Assembly: GCA_021200475.1 (NCBI GenBank)
Contig: JAJQGP010000012.1
Location: 1 to 35,667, forward strand
Source of the DNA: Lachnospiraceae bacterium
Lineage (GTDB): Bacteria > Bacillota > Clostridia > Lachnospirales > Lachnospiraceae
Length of the DNA: 35,667 bases
Reading direction: 5' to 3'
Part shown: one piece after another, positions 18,101 through 33,999 of the stretch
Layout of the letters: the number at the start of each line of letters is the position of its first letter
Numbering within the stretch: the stretch's first letter is position 1
Position numbers and translations under genes: made by a program
Notes under the pieces: model-generated
The model's input: the letters and a program-made list of their open reading frames with translations, nothing else
Told to the model about the DNA's origin: nothing
Database searches by the model: none

Positions 18101-19249
18101 ATGAAAGCGTTTCTGATACTCGAAGATGGCACAGTATTTGCGGGTACCAGTATTGGCTCACCGCGTGAGGTGGTGAGTGAGATTGTATTTAACACATCGA
18201 TGACTGGTTATCTGGAAGTGTTGACGGATCCGTCCTATGCCGGACAGGCAGTGGTGATGACGTATCCGCTGATTGGTAATTATGGGATTTGTTATGAGGA
18301 CATGGAGTCCGAACGACCCTGGCTTGACGCATTTATTGTCCGGGAGCTTTCCCGTATCCCGAGTAATTTCCGTTCCGAAGATACGATTCAGAATTTTCTG
18401 TTAAAATATGATATTCCAGGAATCGCCGGTATTGATACCCGCGCACTTACAAAAATTCTTCGTGAAAAAGGCACTATGAATGGCTGCATCACCACGAATG
18501 AGAATTATCAGTTAGAAGAAATCCTTCCCAGACTCGCCGCTTATACAACCGGAAAAGTAGTTGAAAAAGTTACCTGCCGGGAGAAGTATGTGCTTAAGGG
18601 GGATGGCCCCAGGGTCGCGCTGCTTGACCTTGGAACAAAGCGGAACATCGCGCGCTGCCTGAATCAGCGGGGATGCGAGGTAACGGTCTATCCGGCACTG
18701 ACAAAAGCGGAGGAGATCCTTGCGGCCAGCCCGGATGGCATCATGCTTTCCAATGGCCCCGGAGACCCGAAGGAATGCACAGCGATGATTGAGGAGATCA
18801 AAAAGCTGTACGCGTCGGATGTTCCGATTTTTGCGATCTGTCTGGGACACCAGCTGATGGCGCTCGCGAATGGCGCCGATACGTATAAGATGAAGTACGG
18901 TCATCGCGGAGGCAACCATCCGGTACGTGATCTGGCGACCGGACGCGTCTATATTTCCTCACAGAACCACGGATATGTGGTGGACGCAGAGCATATGGAC
19001 CCGGCGATTGCAGTGCCGGCATTTGAAAACGTCAATGACGGGACAAATGAGGGTCTTGCTTACACCGGAAAGAATATTTTTACAATTCAGTTTCACCCGG
19101 AGGCGTCGCCCGGTCCGCTGGACTCGGGATATCTGTTTGACCGTTTTATGGGGATGATGCGCCCGGAAGCTGCGGCAGAAAAAATCGCGGCGGATGAGGG
19201 CGGAAAAGAAATGCCAGAACCAGATCATGAGAGGGAGGTGCGTTTGTAA
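18101..19249 (+). CDS. carA: Carbamoyl-phosphate synthase small subunit (glutamine amidotransferase)
   Basis: A 382-residue CarA. The N-terminal domain (MTGYLEVLTDPSYAGQ near 34-49) is followed by a class I glutaminase with nucleophile C247 in ICLGHQL (246-252) and H332/E334 in FHPEASPGP. It releases ammonia from glutamine for CarB, feeding pyrimidine and arginine synthesis. The stop codon shares a base with the carB start (TAATG), so the two are coupled. RBS GAAAGGAG. The leader hairpin upstream is the visible candidate for regulation. Confidence 0.95.
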   Translation: MKAFLILEDGTVFAGTSIGSPREVVSEIVFNTSMTGYLEVLTDPSYAGQAVVMTYPLIGNYGICYEDMESERPWLDAFIVRELSRIPSNFRSEDTIQNFLLKYDIPGIAGIDTRALTKILREKGTMNGCITTNENYQLEEILPRLAAYTTGKVVEKVTCREKYVLKGDGPRVALLDLGTKRNIARCLNQRGCEVTVYPALTKAEEILAASPDGIMLSNGPGDPKECTAMIEEIKKLYASDVPIFAICLGHQLMALANGADTYKMKYGHRGGNHPVRDLATGRVYISSQNHGYVVDAEHMDPAIAVPAFENVNDGTNEGLAYTGKNIFTIQFHPEASPGPLDSGYLFDRFMGMMRPEAAAEKIAADEGGKEMPEPDHEREVRL

Positions 19250-22200
19250 TGCCAAAGAATCCGGATATTAAGAAGGTATTGGTCATCGGTTCCGGCCCGA
19301 TCGTGATCGGACAGGCCACAGAGTTTGACTATGCAGGTACGCAGGCCTGCCGTGCCCTTCATGAGGAGGGGATTGAGGTTGTGTTGCTGAATTCGAATCC
19401 GGCGACCATCATGACGGATAAAGACATCGCAGATCACGTGTATATTGAGCCGCTGACCGTGGAAGTGGTTGAGCAGCTGATTTTAAAAGAGCGCCCGGAC
19501 AGCGTGCTCCCGACCCTGGGCGGTCAGGCGGGACTGAATCTGGCGATGGAGCTGGCAGAGCGGGGATTTCTGGAGAAAAACGGTGTCCGCCTGATCGGAA
19601 CGACTGCTCAGACCATCAAAAAGGCAGAGGATCGCCAGGAATTCAAAAATACAATGGAAAAAATCGGCGAGCCGGTGGCTCCGTCGAAGGTCGTAGAGTC
19701 CGTAGAAGAAGGCGTAGCTTTTACCCGGACGATCGGCTATCCGGTCGTTCTGCGCCCTGCCTATACGCTGGGCGGCAGCGGCGGCGGCATTGCGCACAAC
19801 TATGAGGAGCTGGTGGAGATCCTGGAAAATGGTCTCCGGCTGAGCCGTGTCGGACAAGTGCTTGTGGAGCGCTGCATCGCCGGGTGGAAGGAGATTGAAT
19901 ACGAGGTGATGCGCGATGGCGCAGGCAATGTGATTACGGTCTGCAACATGGAAAACATCGATCCGGTCGGCGTACACACCGGCGACAGCATTGTCGTGGC
20001 TCCGTCTCAGACGCTGGGAGATAAGGAATACCAGATGCTGCGCACCTCTGCGCTGAATATCATCAGCGAGCTGAAAATTACCGGAGGCTGTAATGTCCAG
20101 TTTGCGCTGCATCCGGACAGCTTTGAATACTGTGTGATAGAGGTGAATCCGCGTGTGAGCCGTTCCTCCGCGCTGGCTTCCAAGGCAACCGGTTATCCGA
20201 TTGCAAAGGTGGCGGCGAAGATTGCGCTGGGCTATACGCTGGACGAGATCAAAAACGCGATCACAGGAAAGACCTATGCGAGCTTTGAGCCCATGCTGGA
20301 CTATTGCGTGGTTAAGATGCCGCGTCTGCCATTCGATAAATTTATCAGTGCAAGCCGCCGCCTGACCACGCAGATGAAGGCGACCGGTGAGGTTATGAGC
20401 ATCTGTACCAATTTTGAAGGTGCCCTCATGAAAGCGATCCGTTCGCTGGAGCAGCATGTAGACTGCCTGCTGTCCTATGATTTTTCCGGCCTGGATGACG
20501 ATGCACTGCTGCGGCAGCTCGCGGTCGTAGACGACCGGCGGATCTGGGTGATCGCGGAGGCGCTGCGCCGGAAGTTTTCCTATGAAAAAATACATGAGCT
20601 GACGAAGATCGATATCTGGTTTATCGATAAGATTGCCATTCTGACAGAGATGGAGGAGCGCCTGCGCAAAGAGGAGCTTACGGTCGAGCTGTTAAAGGAA
20701 GCGAAACGGGTGGAATTCCCGGATAACGTGATTGCCCGCCTGACCGGAAAGAGCGAGGAAGAGATTAAGCAGATGCGCTATTCCAATGGGATCATTGCCG
20801 CATACAAGATGGTAGACACCTGTGCGGCAGAGTTTGCCGCGACGACGCCTTATTACTACTCGGTGTTTGGCAGTGAAAACGAGGCATCGGGGGAGCTTGC
20901 CGGAAACGCTGCGGCCGAAACGGAATCGGGCTGTACCAGGGGAACCACTTCGCGCAGAAAAAAGGTGCTTGTTCTTGGGTCCGGCCCGATCCGGATCGGG
21001 CAGGGCATCGAGTTTGACTTCTGCTCTGTGCATTGTACCTGGGCCTTTGAGAAGGAAGGCTATGAAACGATTATCATAAATAACAACCCGGAGACAGTCA
21101 GCACGGACTTTGACATCGCGGATAAGCTCTATTTTGAGCCGTTGACCCCGGAGGATGTAGAAAATGTCGTGCGTCTGGAGAATCCAGACGGTGCGGTGGT
21201 ACAGTTTGGCGGACAGACGGCGATTAAGCTGACGGAATCACTGATGAAGATGGGCGTGCCGATTCTTGGCACCTCCGCCGAAAATGTGGACGCGGCGGAA
21301 GATCGGGAGCTCTTTGATGAGATTCTGGAGAAATGCAATATTCCGCGGCCGGCGGGACATACCGTCTTTACGGCCGAAGAGGCGAAAAAGGCGGCCAATG
21401 AGCTGGGGTATCCGGTGCTGGTGCGCCCCTCCTATGTACTTGGCGGACAGGGGATGCAGATTGCGATCAGTGATGAGGATGTGGAGCAGTATATCGGTGT
21501 GATCAATCAGATCGCCCAGGAACACCCGATTCTGGTAGATAAATACATGATGGGCAAGGAGATTGAGGTCGATGCCGTCTGCGATGGCACCGATGTCCTG
21601 ATTCCGGGCATCATGGAGCACATCGAGCGCGCGGGGATTCACTCCGGAGACAGCATCTCGGTGTATCCGGCACAGAGTATCTCGAAGAAGATCAAGCGCG
21701 TCATTGAGGATTATACGCGCAAGCTCGCCCGCTCTTTGCATGTCATCGGACTGATTAATATTCAGTTTATTGTCAGCAATGATGAGGTGTATGTGATCGA
21801 GGTAAACCCGCGCTCCAGCCGTACCGTGCCGTACATCAGTAAGGTGACGGGGATCCCGATCGTGCCGCTTGCGACGAAGGTAATTCTTGGCGCCACCATC
21901 CGTGAACTGGGCTTTGAGCCGGGACTGCAGCCGGAAGCGGACTATTTCGCGATCAAGATGCCGGTATTTTCCTTTGAGAAAATCCAGGGCGCAGACATCA
22001 GCCTGGGGCCGGAGATGAAGTCGACCGGAGAGTGCCTCGGCATTGCAGCGGCCTTCGATGAGGCGCTGTATAAGGCGTTTCTTGGTGCGGGCATTAATCT
22101 GCCCAAATACAAAAATATGATCATCACGGTGCGTGACTCGGACAAGCTTGATGTGATCGATATCGCGAAGCGGTTTGAGGCGCTGGGGTACAATATTTTC

Positions 22201-22512
22201 GCGACCAAGGGAACGGCGCGCGCCTTGATGGAAGAGGATGTACAGGTGCGTATGACCCGCAAAGTGGAGCAGGAGTCACCGAACATACTGGACCTGATCC
22301 TCGGCCATGAGATTGATCTGGTCATCGATACGCCTTCGCAGGGCGTGGGCCATGCAAAAGATGGTTTCATTATCCGGCGGAATGCGATTGAGACTGGCGT
22401 AAACGTTCTCACTTCGCTGGATACGGCGAATGCGCTGATCACCAGCCTGGAAAACAATAATATCCATGGCCTGACGCTGGTGGATATTGCAGCAATCGAC
22501 AGACGGATGTAA
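19249..22512 (+). CDS. carB: Carbamoyl-phosphate synthase large subunit
   Basis: A 1087-residue CarB. Two homologous halves each begin with the same pattern (VLVIGSGPIVIGQ near residue 10; VLVLGSGPIRIGQ near 574) and hold an ATP-grasp domain; the first makes carboxy-phosphate and carbamate, the second phosphorylates carbamate. The C-terminal MGS-like domain (about 945-1087) is the allosteric site. A hydrophilic linker of about 30 residues (541-572, rich in Gly, Ala, Glu and Thr) joins the halves and looks longer than usual. No terminator is obvious after the stop. Confidence 0.95.
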   Translation: MPKNPDIKKVLVIGSGPIVIGQATEFDYAGTQACRALHEEGIEVVLLNSNPATIMTDKDIADHVYIEPLTVEVVEQLILKERPDSVLPTLGGQAGLNLAMELAERGFLEKNGVRLIGTTAQTIKKAEDRQEFKNTMEKIGEPVAPSKVVESVEEGVAFTRTIGYPVVLRPAYTLGGSGGGIAHNYEELVEILENGLRLSRVGQVLVERCIAGWKEIEYEVMRDGAGNVITVCNMENIDPVGVHTGDSIVVAPSQTLGDKEYQMLRTSALNIISELKITGGCNVQFALHPDSFEYCVIEVNPRVSRSSALASKATGYPIAKVAAKIALGYTLDEIKNAITGKTYASFEPMLDYCVVKMPRLPFDKFISASRRLTTQMKATGEVMSICTNFEGALMKAIRSLEQHVDCLLSYDFSGLDDDALLRQLAVVDDRRIWVIAEALRRKFSYEKIHELTKIDIWFIDKIAILTEMEERLRKEELTVELLKEAKRVEFPDNVIARLTGKSEEEIKQMRYSNGIIAAYKMVDTCAAEFAATTPYYYSVFGSENEASGELAGNAAAETESGCTRGTTSRRKKVLVLGSGPIRIGQGIEFDFCSVHCTWAFEKEGYETIIINNNPETVSTDFDIADKLYFEPLTPEDVENVVRLENPDGAVVQFGGQTAIKLTESLMKMGVPILGTSAENVDAAEDRELFDEILEKCNIPRPAGHTVFTAEEAKKAANELGYPVLVRPSYVLGGQGMQIAISDEDVEQYIGVINQIAQEHPILVDKYMMGKEIEVDAVCDGTDVLIPGIMEHIERAGIHSGDSISVYPAQSISKKIKRVIEDYTRKLARSLHVIGLINIQFIVSNDEVYVIEVNPRSSRTVPYISKVTGIPIVPLATKVILGATIRELGFEPGLQPEADYFAIKMPVFSFEKIQGADISLGPEMKSTGECLGIAAAFDEALYKAFLGAGINLPKYKNMIITVRDSDKLDVIDIAKRFEALGYNIFATKGTARALMEEDVQVRMTRKVEQESPNILDLILGHEIDLVIDTPSQGVGHAKDGFIIRRNAIETGVNVLTSLDTANALITSLENNNIHGLTLVDIAAIDRRM

Positions 22513-25644: not shown

Positions 25645-26526
25645 ATGCGCCTGGCAGGACGGGGGTACTGTATGAGACATGCTTTGGAGATAGGATGCTT
25701 AGGTTTAGGCATCCTTTGTCTTTTTTATTATGCCGGAATCGTATCCTATGCCGGGATCTCGACAAGCTTTGCCTGGATCTGGGTTCTGGGCGGTGCGATT
25801 CTGCTCTCGCTGTGCGGGGGAGAGCATTACCTGGAAAAACATCCGGGGAGCTTTCTGCGCTTTGCGGCAGGGGCGGTGTCTGCCTTGCTGCTGCTGGCGC
25901 TTGTGGTTGTTCTGGTAATCGGCAGCCGCGTGTTTTCTGCCATGCGCACGGATGGCAGCTACTCGTTCGCAGCTGCGGGTTCTGACGAGGGAAAACAAAA
26001 TCCTCTGCCGCCGCTGGTTTACTCTGCTTCCGAAGAGGAGCTGGAGTATCTGGTGGTACTCGGGGCGCAGGTCCGCGGAACCGTCCCTTCCCGCGCTTTG
26101 AAAAATCGGCTGGAACGCGCGGACGCCTATGCCAGAGAGCACCCGGATACGCTTCTGATTCTCTCCGGGGGACAGGGAGCGGACGAAGATATTTCGGAAG
26201 CGGAGTGTATGTACCGTTATCTGACGGAAGCCGGGATTGCGGAGAACCGGCTGATCCTGGAGGAGGAATCGACCAGCACACAGGAAAATCTGAAGTACTC
26301 TGCCGCTGTCATTCGACGGTTATCCGAAAGTGACGCAGAAGAGGAAGTAAGCAGTTCGGTTGGCGTGATCACGAACAATTTTCATATTTACCGGGCGCTC
26401 TGGTATGCCAGAGAGCAGGGCTATACGGATGTATGTGGCCTTTCGGCCACGTCCGATATCGGTATGCTGCCCCACAACGCTCTGCGGGAGATCTGTGCAA
26501 TTCTGGTGAATTGCCTGCTTCGTTAG
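25645..26526 (+). CDS. YdcF/ElyC family membrane protein
   Basis: 293 residues from the ATG at 25645 (AGGTGAAAAG upstream); an ATG at 25672 is possible too. Three membrane helices occupy about residues 12-100. The outer C-terminal DUF218 domain has YLVVLGAQVRG, SRALKNRLERA, LILSGGQGADE, EAECMYRYL, EEESTSTQENL and ITNNFHIYRA, the full family pattern. ElyC and SanA relatives are linked to envelope integrity and vancomycin sensitivity. It is a second, membrane-bound paralogue of the protein at 10376. Confidence 0.87.
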   Translation: MRLAGRGYCMRHALEIGCLGLGILCLFYYAGIVSYAGISTSFAWIWVLGGAILLSLCGGEHYLEKHPGSFLRFAAGAVSALLLLALVVVLVIGSRVFSAMRTDGSYSFAAAGSDEGKQNPLPPLVYSASEEELEYLVVLGAQVRGTVPSRALKNRLERADAYAREHPDTLLILSGGQGADEDISEAECMYRYLTEAGIAENRLILEEESTSTQENLKYSAAVIRRLSESDAEEEVSSSVGVITNNFHIYRALWYAREQGYTDVCGLSATSDIGMLPHNALREICAILVNCLLR

Positions 26527-26577
26527 AATGTATTGAAAAAAATCCAAAAAACAGCCGGAAAAACATTTGATATTTTC

Positions 26578-26605
26578 TTGACAAATGTTTTTGGTTTGGT
26601 ATAAT
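26578..26605 (+). promoter_or_regulatory. Strong promoter of the fhs control region
   Basis: Consensus TTGACA (26578-26583), 16 bases, consensus TATAAT (26600-26605). It drives the riboswitch leader and fhs, with a predicted leader of about 505 bases before the ATG at 27118. Confidence 0.85.
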
Positions 26606-26618
26606 GAGTGGCAAGTGA

Positions 26619-26695
26619 GAGGTTTTGATTGCTGACGGACCAGTGGAGCACCACAAGGTAATCAAAATAATAATTTTGTCGACCGTCTGGACAGC
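26619..26695 (+). promoter_or_regulatory. ZTP (pfl) riboswitch aptamer
   Basis: P1: TTTTGATT (26623-26630) with AATCAAAA (26660-26667). Inside, CTGACGGA on the left and AAGG on the right flank P2 GTGG-AGCA-CCAC (26643-26654), the pfl arrangement. After an AT-rich linker comes the 3' subdomain GTCGACCGTCTGGACAG (26678-26694), very close to the family's CCGCCUGGGC-type hairpin. ZTP riboswitches sense ZMP/ZTP, which builds up when 10-formyl-folate is short, and commonly precede folate and purine genes, usually switching them on. The 3' subdomain runs into the terminator at 26690, the usual design. No covariance search was possible. Confidence 0.82.
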
Positions 26696-26725
26696 ATGAT
26701 TCATTTCCATTATGCTGTCTTTTTT
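26690..26725 (+). terminator. Intrinsic terminator of the ZTP riboswitch
   Basis: GACAGCAT (26690-26697) pairs perfectly with ATGCTGTC (26712-26719), followed by TTTTTT (26720-26725). The left arm uses bases of the aptamer's 3' subdomain, so aptamer and terminator should be mutually exclusive. Confidence 0.85.
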
Positions 26726-26810
26726 CTTTTCAGAACCTCCGCGAATAATTTTATATTGTTACGGGTAATGCTCTCAGGACCGGCTGAAAAGAGAGGTCAT
26801 GGGAGATTAC

Positions 26811-26908
26811 AGGTAGAGTAGATACGGTACGTTAAGTGTCACATGATGGGAAGGTCTTTGTTGTGAACGAAGGAGTTATTCCGCGTTACGGTATCGCTTC
26901 CGCTACTG
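26811..26908 (+). promoter_or_regulatory. THF riboswitch aptamer
   Basis: The stretch holds the hallmarks of the tetrahydrofolate (folT) class in order: GAGTAGAT (26817-26823 region), GTTAAGTG (26831-26838), TGGGA (26847-26851), AACGAAGGAG (26866-26875) and CCGC near the end. P1 pairs GTAG (26813-26816) with CTAC (26903-26906); P2 pairs GATAC (26821-26825) with GTATC (26891-26895); P3 pairs TCACA (26839-26843) with TGTGA (26862-26866). THF riboswitches bind reduced folates and precede folate transport or synthesis genes. It sits downstream of the complete ZTP unit and upstream of fhs. Confidence 0.87.
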
Positions 26909-26976
26909 CGTTCAGAAGGATGGCGTGCTGGATATCATCTGATATCATGGCAAATGATTCCCTGCGCAGTTTTTTT
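26905..26976 (+). terminator. Terminator downstream of the THF aptamer
   Basis: ACTGCG (26905-26910) can pair with CGCAGT (26965-26970), directly followed by seven T (26970-26976). Inside lies GATATC-ATCT-GATATC (26931-26946) with flanking pairs. The left arm shares bases with the 3' strand of the aptamer's P1, so the two structures compete. The long inner region makes the exact fold uncertain. Confidence 0.6.
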
Positions 26977-27039
26977 GTGCCTTTTTAAGCTTCTTTCCGG
27001 CTTCTCGGATAAGAGCTACTTCACAGACATGTCGCGGGA

Positions 27040-27091
27040 ATACCAGGGCAGAGCTCTGGCTGACGTCTTTCTTCATTTTCACCACTGGTAT
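27040..27091 (+). promoter_or_regulatory. Hairpin before the fhs ribosome binding site
   Basis: ATACCAG (27040-27046) pairs with CTGGTAT (27085-27091). The helix ends a few bases before the fhs ribosome binding site (AAGGAGAGGAG). It could affect translation or simply stabilise the message. Confidence 0.35.
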
Positions 27092-27117
27092 TTATAAGGA
27101 GAGGAGATTTTTTAGCT

Positions 27118-28803
27118 ATGGGATTCAAATCTGACATTGAAATCGCACAGGAAACACCGATGTCCCCGATTACGGAGATCGCGGCAAAGGCAGGGATTGA
27201 CGAGAAGTATCTGGAGCAGTATGGCAAGTATAAGGCAAAGATCGACTACAACCTGCTTCGTGAGACAGATAAGAAGGATGGCAAGCTCGTTCTCGTGACA
27301 GCAATCAACCCGACGCCGGCTGGCGAAGGCAAGACGACGACGACCGTTGGTCTGGCAGATGGCCTTCAGAAGCTTGGCAAGAATGTTATGGTAGCGCTGC
27401 GTGAGCCGTCTCTTGGACCGGTCTTTGGTGTAAAGGGCGGAGCGGCCGGCGGCGGATATGCACAGGTTGTTCCGATGGAGGATATCAACCTTCACTTCAC
27501 AGGCGACTTCCATGCGATTGGCGCAGCGAATAACCTGCTGGCGGCTATGCTGGATAATCATATTTATCAGGGTAACGCGCTGAACATTGACCCGCGCAAG
27601 ATCACTTGGAGACGCTGCGTGGATATGAACGATCGTCAGCTTCGTTTTGTGGTAGATGGCCTTGGCGGAAAGACCAATGGTGTACCGAGAGAGGATGGCT
27701 ATGACATCACGGTAGCTTCCGAGATCATGGCAGTGCTTTGCCTGGCAAGCGATATCACAGACCTGAAAGAGCGTCTTTCCAGAATCATTGTTGGCTATAC
27801 TTATGGCAAGGTTTCGGAGCAGAAACCGGTGACCGCCGGCGACCTGCATGCACAGGGCGCGATGGCAGCTCTTCTGAAGGATGCCCTCAAGCCGAACCTG
27901 GTACAGACGCTGGAGCATGTACCGGCCATCGTTCACGGCGGACCATTCGCAAACATCGCGCATGGCTGCAACTCCGTAACGGCGACGAAGATCGCTCTCA
28001 AGCTCGCGGATTACACGATCACAGAGGCTGGTTTCGGTGCAGACCTGGGCGCTGAGAAGTTCCTGAACATCAAGTGCCGTATGGCTGGCCTGCATCCGAA
28101 CGCGGTCGTTATCGTAGCGACGGTTCGTGCGCTGAAGTACAATGGCGGTGTTCCGAAGGCGGATCTGAACCAGGAGAACCTGGAAGCGCTGGAGAAGGGT
28201 CTTCCGAACCTGCTGAAGCATGTCAGCAACATTAAGAACGTATACAAGCTTCCGTGTGTAGTTGCGATCAACGCATTCCCGACCGATACAAAGGCGGAGC
28301 TGGATCTCGTTGAGAACAAGTGCCGTGAGCTGGGCGTAAACGTGGCTCTGTCCGAGGTATGGGCAAAGGGCGGCGAAGGCGGCATCAAGCTGGCAGAGGA
28401 AGTAATCCGTCTGGTAGAAGAGCCGAACGATTTCTCCTTCAGCTATGAGCTGGAAGGCAGCATCGAAGACAAGCTGAACACCATCGTTCAGAGAATTTAC
28501 GGCGGCAAGGGCGTAGTCCTGACGGCGGAAGCGAAGAAGCAGGCGAAGCAGCTCGAGGATATGGGCTATGGCAACTGCCCGATCTGCGTAGCGAAGACCC
28601 AGTACTCCCTGACTGACGACCCGACCAAGCTCGGTGCGCCGACCGACTTCGAAGTGACTGTTCGGAACCTCAAAATCTCCGCGGGTGCCGGCTTCATCGT
28701 AGCTCTGACCGGCGACATCATGACCATGCCTGGTCTGCCGAAGGTACCGGCTGCAGAGCGTATCGATGTAGATGAGACAGGAAAGATTTCCGGACTGTTC
28801 TGA
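27118..28803 (+). CDS. fhs: Formate--tetrahydrofolate ligase
   Basis: 561 residues, the usual length. It makes 10-formyl-THF from formate, THF and ATP for purine synthesis and, in acetogens, the methyl branch of the Wood-Ljungdahl pathway. The ATP site is [15 protein letters not shown] (64-78); [20 protein letters not shown] and [14 protein letters not shown] are further family blocks. Codon use is strongly biased, suggesting high expression. Control appears to be at the RNA level through the ZTP and THF riboswitches upstream. A terminator follows at 28912. No other one-carbon gene is adjacent. Confidence 0.97.
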
Positions 28804-31974: not shown

Positions 31975-32175
31975 ATGGAAAATAAAAACAGAATCAGAGA
32001 GTTGCGAGAAAGTACGGGTATGAACCGAAAGGATTTTTGTGAGTTCTTTCAAATTCCTTATAGGACGGTCACAGATTGGGAGCTGGGCAACAGACACGCA
32101 CCGGAGTATGTGATTCGTTTGCTGGCCTATTACATTCAAACGGAAAACATTCACAAGGAGGCAAACGAACAATGA
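31975..32175 (+). CDS. Small XRE-type helix-turn-helix protein
   Basis: 66 residues: MENKNRIRELRESTGMNR, then DFCEFFQIPYRTVTDWELGN as the helix-turn-helix and a final helix (YVIRLLAYYIQ). It is most likely a DNA-binding autoregulator. Its stop overlaps the RhuM start by four bases (ATGA), so the two are translationally coupled. Composition is more AT-rich than the upstream genes. RBS ACGGAGAA. Confidence 0.8.
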   Translation: MENKNRIRELRESTGMNRKDFCEFFQIPYRTVTDWELGNRHAPEYVIRLLAYYIQTENIHKEANEQ

Positions 32176-33176
32176 GCCAATCCAATATAATTATGTATAC
32201 AACGGAAGATGGGCTGACAAAGATAGAGGCTACCTTTGATGAGGATACAGTCTGGCTGTCTATTGATCAGATGGCAAAACTGTTTCAGCGAGACAAATCG
32301 ACCATATCCCGGCATATTAAAAACATTTTTACTGAGGGCGAGCTGAGGCCAGAGGCAACTGTTGCAAAATTTGCAACAGTTCAAATGGAAGGTGGTCGGC
32401 AGGTGTCCAGGGATATTGAGTACTATAACCTCGATGTTATCATCTCTGTCGGTTATCGGGTGAAATCCCTGCGAGGGACGCAGTTCCGCATGTGGGCGAG
32501 TGGCATCCTGAAAGAGTACATGAAAAAAGGATTTGTGCTGGACGATGATCGTTTGAAGCGATTGGGCGGGGGCAATTACTTTGATGAGCTGCTGGCCCGC
32601 ATACGGGACATTCGTTCTTCTGAAAAGGTGTTTTGGCGCAAAGTTCTGGAGATTTATGCTACCAGTATTGATTATGACCCAAAGGCCGAGTCCTCTATCT
32701 TATTTTTTAAACAGGTGCAGAATAAAATGCACTGGGCAGCGCATAAGCATACGGCGGCAGAGATTGTGTATGAACGAGCGGATGCAGATAAGGAAAATAT
32801 GGGGCTGACATCCTGGTCGGGGAAGCAGATCAGACGAGCGGATACGGAGATCGCCAAGAATTATCTGACCCAGCCGGAACTGGATGCACTAAACAAAATC
32901 GTGTCCGCGTATCTGGATATTGCAGAGGTCCGCGCTCTTGAACATGAACCTATGTATATGAAAGACTGGCTGGAAACGATTGATGATTACCTGAAAATGA
33001 CAAGGCGGGATATATTGACTACTAAGGGACGTGTCACTCATCAGCAGGCAATCCGGAAAGCTCATGAAGAGTATGCAAAGTATCAGAAGAAGCAGGATGA
33101 ACTGTTCTCCCCTGTCGAACAGCACTTTATAGAGAGTATAAAAGAATTGGAGACAAAAAGCCAACCTGATTCGTAA
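32172..33176 (+). CDS. RhuM family protein
   Basis: 334 residues from the ATG at 32172 (AAGGAGG upstream). The N-terminus reads as a KilA-N/Bro-like or HTH module (WLSIDQMAKLFQRDKSTISRHI, split at 28-49) followed by YYNLDVIISVGYRVKS and FRMWASGILKEYMKKG, which are diagnostic of Virulence_RhuM (first seen in a Salmonella pathogenicity island). The C-terminal half has helical segments including HKHTAAEIVYERADADKENMG and TRRDILTTKGRVTHQQA. Members are scattered in mobile and defence-type loci; the biochemical role is unsettled. A 25-base palindrome lies in the coding sequence (32357-32381). Confidence 0.88.
   Translation: MSQSNIIMYTTEDGLTKIEATFDEDTVWLSIDQMAKLFQRDKSTISRHIKNIFTEGELRPEATVAKFATVQMEGGRQVSRDIEYYNLDVIISVGYRVKSLRGTQFRMWASGILKEYMKKGFVLDDDRLKRLGGGNYFDELLARIRDIRSSEKVFWRKVLEIYATSIDYDPKAESSILFFKQVQNKMHWAAHKHTAAEIVYERADADKENMGLTSWSGKQIRRADTEIAKNYLTQPELDALNKIVSAYLDIAEVRALEHEPMYMKDWLETIDDYLKMTRRDILTTKGRVTHQQAIRKAHEEYAKYQKKQDELFSPVEQHFIESIKELETKSQPDS
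32357..32381. repeat. 25-base palindrome inside the RhuM gene
   Basis: AACTGTTGCAAA (32357-32368) and TTTGCAACAGTT (32370-32381) are perfect reverse complements around one A. The loop is too short for a hairpin of full length, so it is more likely a double-stranded binding site, or a chance effect of the repeated coding words AT-V-AKFATV. Confidence 0.5.
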
Positions 33177-33222: not shown

Positions 33223-33999
33223 ATGAAATTTCGACCATGCATAGATATACATAATGGAAAAGTAAAACAGATCGTAGGCGGCAGCCTGCGGGATCAGGGA
33301 GATCAGGCCAGTGAAAACTTTGTCTCCGGGCAGGATGCGGACTATTATGCGAACCTTTATCAAAAAGATGGATTGAAGGGCGGTCATGTGATTCTCCTCA
33401 ATCCGGTTTCCTCTCCTTATTATGAGGCTACGCGAAAACAGGCGCTGCGGGCCCTGGCGGCCTATCCGGGCGGACTGCAGCTTGGCGGCGGTGTCACTGC
33501 TGAAAATGCGGCCTTTTTTCTCGATGCCGGAGCGTCGCACGTGATTGTAACCTCCTATGTCTTTCGGGACGGCCGCATCCAATATGACAATCTGGAGCGC
33601 CTTGTCTGCGAGATCGGAAAAGAGCATCTGGTACTGGACCTGAGCTGCAGCAAAAAAGAGGGAGACTATGTTATCGTGACTGACCGCTGGCAGAACTTCA
33701 CGGATGTTCCGCTGAATCGGCAGACGCTCGATGATCTGTCGGGGTATTGTGATGAGTTTCTGGTGCATGCGGCCGACGTAGAAGGGAAATCCACCGGAAT
33801 CGAGCTTCCGGTGGCGGAACTGCTTGGAAACTGGGGAAAACGGCCTGTCACCTATGCGGGCGGCGTCGGCAGCTACGAGGACCTGCGCCTGCTGCGTGAA
33901 GCGGGCAAAGACCGCGTGGATGTGACGGTCGGAAGCGCCCTCGACCTGTTCGGCGGAGCGCTTTCCTATCAGAAAATTCTGGAAATCTGTACAGCGTGA
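33223..33999 (+). CDS. hisA: Eukaryotic-type phosphoribosylformimino-AICAR-ribotide isomerase
   Basis: 258-residue TIM barrel. The sequence FRPCIDIHNGKVKQIVGG, then GLQLGGGVTAENA, SHVIVTSYVFRDG, LVLDLSCSKKEG and VTDRWQNFTDV follow the fungal/plant HIS6-type HisA rather than the usual bacterial one. Catalytic Asp residues are D8 and D139. It performs the fourth step of histidine synthesis (ProFAR to PRFAR). It stands alone, away from any his gene, in an accessory-looking block. RBS GGACAACAGGA is weak. Confidence 0.85.
   Translation: MKFRPCIDIHNGKVKQIVGGSLRDQGDQASENFVSGQDADYYANLYQKDGLKGGHVILLNPVSSPYYEATRKQALRALAAYPGGLQLGGGVTAENAAFFLDAGASHVIVTSYVFRDGRIQYDNLERLVCEIGKEHLVLDLSCSKKEGDYVIVTDRWQNFTDVPLNRQTLDDLSGYCDEFLVHAADVEGKSTGIELPVAELLGNWGKRPVTYAGGVGSYEDLRLLREAGKDRVDVTVGSALDLFGGALSYQKILEICTA

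Follow-up and report, generated by a model that had tools for sequence, protein, structure and literature searches.

The DNA that we analysed, referred to here as the window, is a stretch of 35,667 nucleotides from a gut bacterium of the Lachnospiraceae (assembly GCA_021200475.1, contig JAJQGP010000012.1) whose genome of 3.2 Mb is assembled in 180 contigs. On its plus strand, a sigma-70-type promoter (TTGACA-16-TATAAT, 26578-26605) agrees with the consensus at 12/12 positions and carries TG before the -10 element. After a gap of 12 bases it is followed by a ZMP/ZTP (pfl) riboswitch aptamer (26618-26699), then by a THF-I riboswitch aptamer (26812-26907) of an fhs-linked subtype and, 210 bases further on, by fhs (27118-28803), which encodes a formate–tetrahydrofolate ligase (formate-THF ligase) of 561 amino acids; a Shine-Dalgarno-like sequence, AAGGAGAGGAG, precedes the gene at 27096-27106. 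When all 35,667 bases were searched by cmscan with Rfam 15 at gathering thresholds, exactly two families were found, ZMP-ZTP (RF01750; 53.6 bits, threshold 39, E 3.6e-6) and THF (RF01831; 58.1 bits, threshold 36, E 9.6e-11). Fhs was identified by the equivalog model PRK13505 (NCBIfam NF010030) with 939.7 bits against a cut-off of 652.

A preliminary description of this DNA had placed a ZTP-type aptamer at 26619-26695 and a THF-type aptamer at 26811-26908 between a single consensus promoter and fhs, and had named Infernal with the Rfam models as the check. Both aptamers are borne out by that search, the promoter and the gene were correctly recognized, and the coordinates proved right to within a few bases. 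An internal promoter before the THF aptamer was considered and rejected, the best plus-strand matches from the ZTP to the THF aptamer in the window reaching 9/12. We likewise discarded a third element between the second terminator and fhs, where the fold of 26970-27135 resembles those of its shuffles (z -0.20), and a CyaR/RyeE match (21.2 bits, E 0.29) that lies far under its cut-off of 47; a permissive Rfam scan of 26500-27150 gave nothing beyond this sub-threshold match and the two aptamers.

Several other genes on the plus strand of the window are worth recording. Upstream of the leader lie carAB (18101-22512), encoding the small and large subunits of carbamoyl-phosphate synthase. Downstream, a gene for a RhuM-family protein (32076-33176; PF13310, 373.8 bits) adjoins one for HisA (33223-33999), a protein of the pathway that yields ZMP. 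This HisA is of the eukaryote type (TIGR02129 hisA_euk, 321.8 bits, cut-off 229.3), and the bacterial-type HisA models score far under their own cut-offs. Elsewhere in the genome, a second ZTP aptamer (contig C180, 2509-2587) precedes a gene whose start, we assume, resembles a PurO-type IMP cyclohydrolase, the next open reading frame (ORF) being presumably AICAR-formyltransferase-like, and a similar protein start follows ZTP aptamers in several genomes of the genus. The second THF aptamer of the genome precedes what we take to be a FolT-like membrane protein. Thus, both kinds of sensor occur elsewhere in this genome before sensible targets.

Two terminators overlap the two aptamers

Between the promoter and fhs, the ZTP and then the THF-I aptamer are each furnished with a terminator of their own. 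Terminator 1 (26689-26725, plus strand) consists of a 12-pair stem (26689-26720) and a T-tract (T26720-26725), has a folding energy of -15.2 kcal/mol and has similar stems in relatives. It overlaps the 3' part of the aptamer, which ends at 26699, as expected of an ON-type ZTP switch, and the 5' half of its stem includes the 3' strand of the ZTP P3 helix (26690-26694 in the Rfam alignment). In the ZTP class, ligand binding turns expression on.

Terminator 2 (26905-26976, plus strand) pairs 26905-26910 with 26965-26970 (A26905-U26970, C26906-G26969, U26907-A26968, G26908-C26967, C26909-G26966 and G26910-C26965), ends in a tract of seven T (T26970-26976) and folds at -22.8 kcal/mol in the window. 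The P1 helix of the THF aptamer is formed by 26812-26816 with 26903-26907, and the bases ACU at 26905-26907 are therefore both the 3' end of P1 and the first three bases of the terminator stem, which makes P1 and the complete terminator 2 mutually exclusive. A simple stem scan missed this terminator because its loop is long, and the segment 26908-26985, from which three bases at the start of the stem are absent, has an unremarkable fold (z -0.77); the case for terminator 2 thus lies in its conservation in relatives and not in its energy in the window alone. The preliminary description had seen the ZTP 3' end merging into a terminator (26690-26725) as well as a second hairpin with seven T (26905-26976), and both hold, the latter through this conservation.

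Conservation of the P1-embedded terminator

To the platform set, 43 loci were put forward and 40 could be parsed (L081 could not, and L092 and L102 were without THF). A complete ACUGCG/CGCAGU stem, with G-U allowed, followed by 5 to 9 T within ten bases counted from the last stem base, was present in 35/40 fhs-type platforms, although 35 of the 40 come from one genus and are not independent. The same ruler passed 2/56 leaders of the folT/folE type, and with the 5' six-mer shuffled it passed a mean of 1.8/40 (maximum 6) fhs-type and 1.4/56 (maximum 5) folT/folE-type leaders. As to individual departures, L088 has a single mismatch inside the stem, L184 and L189 retain C-G and U.G pairs with P1, and L188, which the ruler mis-set, reads by eye as CUGCGU/ACGCAG and then AUUUUU. 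In other genera the pairing is kept with changed letters, namely GCAC/GUGC plus CU/GG in L189 and L213, and GCGU/ACGU plus ACU/GGU in L225; the letters differ on both sides of the stem, and pairing with the C and U of P1 is maintained. A separate reading of L220 gave no P1-embedded terminator stem. Overall, the terminator begins inside P1 in nearly all fhs-linked THF aptamers examined. Two fhs-type THF leaders, L192 (in the platform set) and L215 (from G145 and G441, respectively), have a CTGCG/CGCAG stem and no U-tract, and these are possibly decayed or working by another mechanism; the second leader of G145 (L186) has an intact terminator.

In the window, the outer three terminator pairs amount to -5.9 kcal/mol against -4.8 kcal/mol for the P1 pairs that they replace, and the outer terminator pairs are the stronger in 35/38 platforms (L188 and L192 left out), the others being L088 (-2.6 versus -4.4 kcal/mol), L184 and L189 (both -4.6 versus -4.8 kcal/mol). 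Folded by ViennaRNA, which has no pseudoknot or ligand terms, the full terminator 2 has a ligand-free probability of at least 0.8 in 35/40 platforms and of 0.95 in the window, so that the default would be off. A conserved upstream antiterminator was sought and rejected, since the average extent to which the terminator 5' strand pairs with the aptamer varied from 0.05 to 0.71 over the 38 platforms; one partner of that strand, a J2/1 hairpin, recurred. The preliminary description had left the sign of the THF response undecided. In its simplest reading, the anatomy of P1 and terminator 2 points to THF opening the terminator (ON), although in the window the terminator, when deprived of the three pairs with P1, keeps -16.9 of its -22.8 kcal/mol, and THF might therefore only weaken termination, with read-through rising in part.

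The THF-I aptamers that precede folT and folE in the same family of bacteria share the fold and the Rfam family of the fhs leaders, and in many of them, too, a hairpin captures the end of P1. In 18/56 folT/folE-type leaders this hairpin directly follows the aptamer, claims the final two bases of P1 and has seven pairs without a mismatch (mean 1.8, maximum 7, in shuffles). Unlike its fhs counterpart it has no U-tract, as the ruler above indicates, and it often contains CCTCC, CCTCT or CTCC. An exact CCTCC occurs within 80 bases in 8/56 folT/folE-type against 0/40 fhs-type leaders, and any of four Shine-Dalgarno-complementary five-mers in 29/56 against 3/40. The folT/folE hairpin would withhold an anti-Shine-Dalgarno strand, which the ligand, by closing P1, would release to shut translation, giving the usual OFF response. 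Thus, competition for P1 can give OFF where the competitor is no terminator, and would give ON in the fhs leaders, where it is one.

The recurring J2/1 hairpin offers a way to the opposite sign. In the window this candidate antiterminator (26897-26918, plus strand; CUUC-CGC-UACU-GCG-UUCA-GAAG, with predicted CGC/GCG pairs) reaches from J2/1 into terminator 2, whose 5' strand it occupies. If it lasted, THF binding, by engaging J2/1 and P1 in the aptamer, could destroy it and free terminator 2 to turn the gene off, while ZTP would still open terminator 1; the leader would then compute ZTP AND NOT THF. It is the prediction of this hairpin in the window that keeps an OFF response in consideration, and its probability there is 0.97 before the terminator 3' strand is made. 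The probability is at least 0.5 in 21/40 platforms, and in L069 and L072, whose leaders are similar to that of the window, the values before synthesis of the 3' strand are 0.99 and 0.97, and the full terminator is left with no more than 0.07 and 0.03 even once the transcript is complete. Furthermore, folate represses the classic folate genes, and an OFF response to THF agrees with the prediction in print for ZTP/THF-I tandems (PMC9481103). However, this is a weak structure (-1.4 to -6.9 kcal/mol, against -13.5 to -33.9 kcal/mol for the terminators). L082 disrupts it (CCAC in place of CCGC; probability 0.0) and L189 reduces it to two pairs, while the overlap of P1 and terminator persists in both. 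The dominance of the terminator without ligand in 35/40 platforms would also leave little for a ligand to turn off, and an OFF response suits a THF-consuming enzyme less well. For these reasons, we consider the AND NOT arrangement rather unlikely and prefer THF as an activator.

A subtype of THF-I aptamer linked to fhs

Judged by their sequences, the fhs-linked THF aptamers form a subtype, seen in seven genera of one family (that of the window and those of G068/G391, G179/G713, G145/G441, G161, G249 and G295). In a set weighted toward one genus, and biased at P1 because CGCTACT was part of the parsing patterns, J2/1 (after GC) is U in 43/43 fhs-type aptamers, as against A in 52, G in 3 and U in 1 of 56 folT/folE-type aptamers, and the bulge (after CG) is U in 43/43 as against G in 43, A in 10, C in 1 and two unread. 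Eight further folT/folE-type aptamers have A (7) or U (1) at J2/1. The window carries both marks (U26898 in J2/1 and U26886 in the bulge) and so differs from the folT/folE members at these two positions. The U of GAGUA, which we take to be the ligand-contacting U7 of the THF riboswitch crystal structures, is U in 56/56 folT/folE-type aptamers, whereas in the 43 fhs-type aptamers it is replaced in 21 (by A in 20 and C in 1).

Since the subtype departs from folT/folE aptamers in two marks close to the binding site, its binding of THF is not assured, and the downstream aptamer might be THF-unresponsive or sense another folate (10-formyl-THF or 5,10-methenyl-THF), the marks then reflecting a changed ligand. 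We think this improbable. The P1-P4 fold is conserved with covariation: in 15 aligned sequences and 28 pairs, 97.1% of cells are paired, and ten pairs are changed on both sides against 4.2 in shuffles, a number reached by 0/500 shuffles, although P1 itself hardly varies. The J1/2 U is retained in the window (U at 26819). In addition, J2/1 U is also found in folT-type leaders of other families of the order, so that it marks no ligand by itself, and the bulge and the platform are better marks of the subtype. THF-I aptamers are, moreover, described as already accepting N5-modified folates (PMC6800512). We infer that the subtype binds THF, and we infer the sign and size of its response likewise.

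When 392 genomes of the order were searched with a covariance model built from the subtype, 48 matches in 46 genomes were obtained, and the five matches of at least 84.8 bits (G000, the genome of the window, with G005, G068, G179 and G713) all belong to the window's family. Among 26 loci that were tried, the G713 match (L284) and 25 lower-scoring ones, 22 could be read; L284 is fhs-type, and the other 21 had no fhs start by eye, which led us to reject a spread of the subtype outside the family. Most of these lower matches precede FolT-like ORFs, two are without a called ORF and four precede larger unnamed ORFs. A second fhs-pattern match lies on contig 31 of G441.

Distribution of the ZTP and THF halves

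Defining a tandem as a THF match no more than 300 bases after a ZTP match on the same strand, we found one before fhs in 21/47 genomes of the window's genus, with an Fhs motif encoded downstream in 20/20 of the tandem genomes other than that of the window. A further 14/47 genomes have the THF part only (G007, G008, G010, G011, G014, G015, G016, G022, G032, G034, G038, G039, G041 and G042), with fhs downstream in 13 of the 14; G034 has two such loci, and no Fhs motif was found at one of these (L097) or at L094 in G039. No ZTP aptamer above cut-off lies within about 490 to 570 bases upstream of the THF-only leaders (159 in G041). At least 2/47 genomes (G036 and G043) have ZTP before fhs without THF, and the remaining ten of the 47 were left out of this tally.

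In tandem leaders the distance from the start of the strong promoter to that of the ZTP aptamer is 35-47 bases, and in the THF-only leaders (13 loci) a promoter of this kind has its start 42 to 91 bases upstream of the THF aptamer; from its position relative to each type of leader, it appears that the ZTP unit is present or absent as a block. Promoter matches of 10/12 occur also inside L078 and inside L069, the contig of which starts some 20 bases upstream of ZTP; L066 and L213 have a second one farther upstream.

In a sample of 150 genomes of the family, tandems were found in five (the window's genome, G005, G065, G145 and G179). The G065 tandem (L185) pairs ZTP with a folT-type THF aptamer, and so both kinds of pairing exist. 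Outside the genus, fhs-type aptamers have ZTP upstream in L184/G179, L186/G145, L213/G391, L220/G249, L225/G295 and L284/G713, and are without it in L189/G068, L192 (the second copy of G145) and L215/G441; for G161 (L188/L222), the contig extends no more than 63 bases upstream of THF, too few to show whether ZTP is there. G068 and G391 belong to one genus and share an upstream tRNA and a similar promoter, with ZTP in G391 alone.

Discussion

The pairing of the two aptamers, the novelty of which the preliminary description had left undecided, has already been published: Sherlock et al. (2022) list ten ZTP/THF-I tandems, ZTP then THF-I, under the logic 'A AND NOT B' (PMC9481103, Table 2), and mention, with reference to Kim 2015 and Ames 2010, that the tandem was noted at the time when both classes were validated. 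The leader in the window agrees with those tandems in its classes, their order in one leader, the separate expression platforms and a gene for the supply of 10-formyl-THF. The sign given there for THF is a prediction, OFF, whereas the P1-embedded terminator of the window predicts ON, and fhs is not named in the main text of that paper. Proposed serial ON/ON logic of the kind considered here is also found there in the AND gates of ppGpp with T box-Leu and of glycine with c-di-GMP-I, but these have other ligands, and the AND entries of its account of tandems do not include ZTP/THF-I. Single ZTP (pfl motif) riboswitches are described before fhs, a named target gene, likewise with a terminator overlapping the 3' part of the aptamer but without a second sensor (PMC2864571), and the main text of a 2025 survey of contiguous riboswitches (PMC12452182) does not mention ZTP or ZMP. 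Our literature search found no THF-I switch called ON, which is no proof of absence. The contribution of this work is comparative, and consists in the distribution, the subtype and the conserved P1-embedded platform; the pairing itself is not new.

On balance, we lean towards the view that the fhs leader would act as a ZMP AND THF transcriptional gate, in which two complete riboswitches follow one another. Such a serial gate had been suggested in the preliminary description, and the idea is supported here. The polymerase would first reach the ZTP switch, where binding of ZMP/ZTP would open terminator 1, which shares sequence with the aptamer. It would then meet the THF-I switch of the fhs-linked subtype, whose terminator stem begins within P1. 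Without THF, terminator 2 would capture three P1 bases and form; with THF bound, P1 would be held shut, terminator 2 would be shortened at its base and the polymerase would pass. Binding of THF at the three-way junction is described as regulating P1 stability (PMC11477058). The predicted outcome is production of Fhs when 10-formyl-THF runs short (high ZMP) while the substrate THF is present, and no production when total folate is low. To the wider proposal we give even chances: that the fhs-specific subtype is sign-inverted, its P1-competing hairpin having been turned into a terminator that makes it a THF-activated ON switch, and that the ZTP/THF tandems before fhs are AND gates.

If the AND reading is true, then one aptamer class would work with opposite signs in one cell, turning off folate uptake and synthesis and turning on an enzyme that consumes THF. 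The fhs leader would distinguish blocked formylation from folate shortage, the tandem reporting 'formyl-folate low, THF available', and related cells would run fhs with either half alone. The published logic assignment of the ZTP/THF-I tandem would then be corrected. For comparison, the genus provides natural leaders with both sensors, with THF only and with ZTP only.

Other folate-related leaders came to light in the same material. Another fhs leader, that of L113, has neither a ZTP nor a THF aptamer above cut-off and carries at 1072-1189 the Rfam FTHFS RNA motif (RF02981, 99.6 bits, cut-off 72.6). Finally, in L187 (494-586, 55.4 bits) and in L230/L231 (G071 and G393), the THF aptamer ends in CGCTACT and has a T-run downstream, and the ORF of the L187 type, which begins 'GFTYRGLKAELARHIITDEEI...', is by eye neither fhs nor folT, an odd target for a folate switch.
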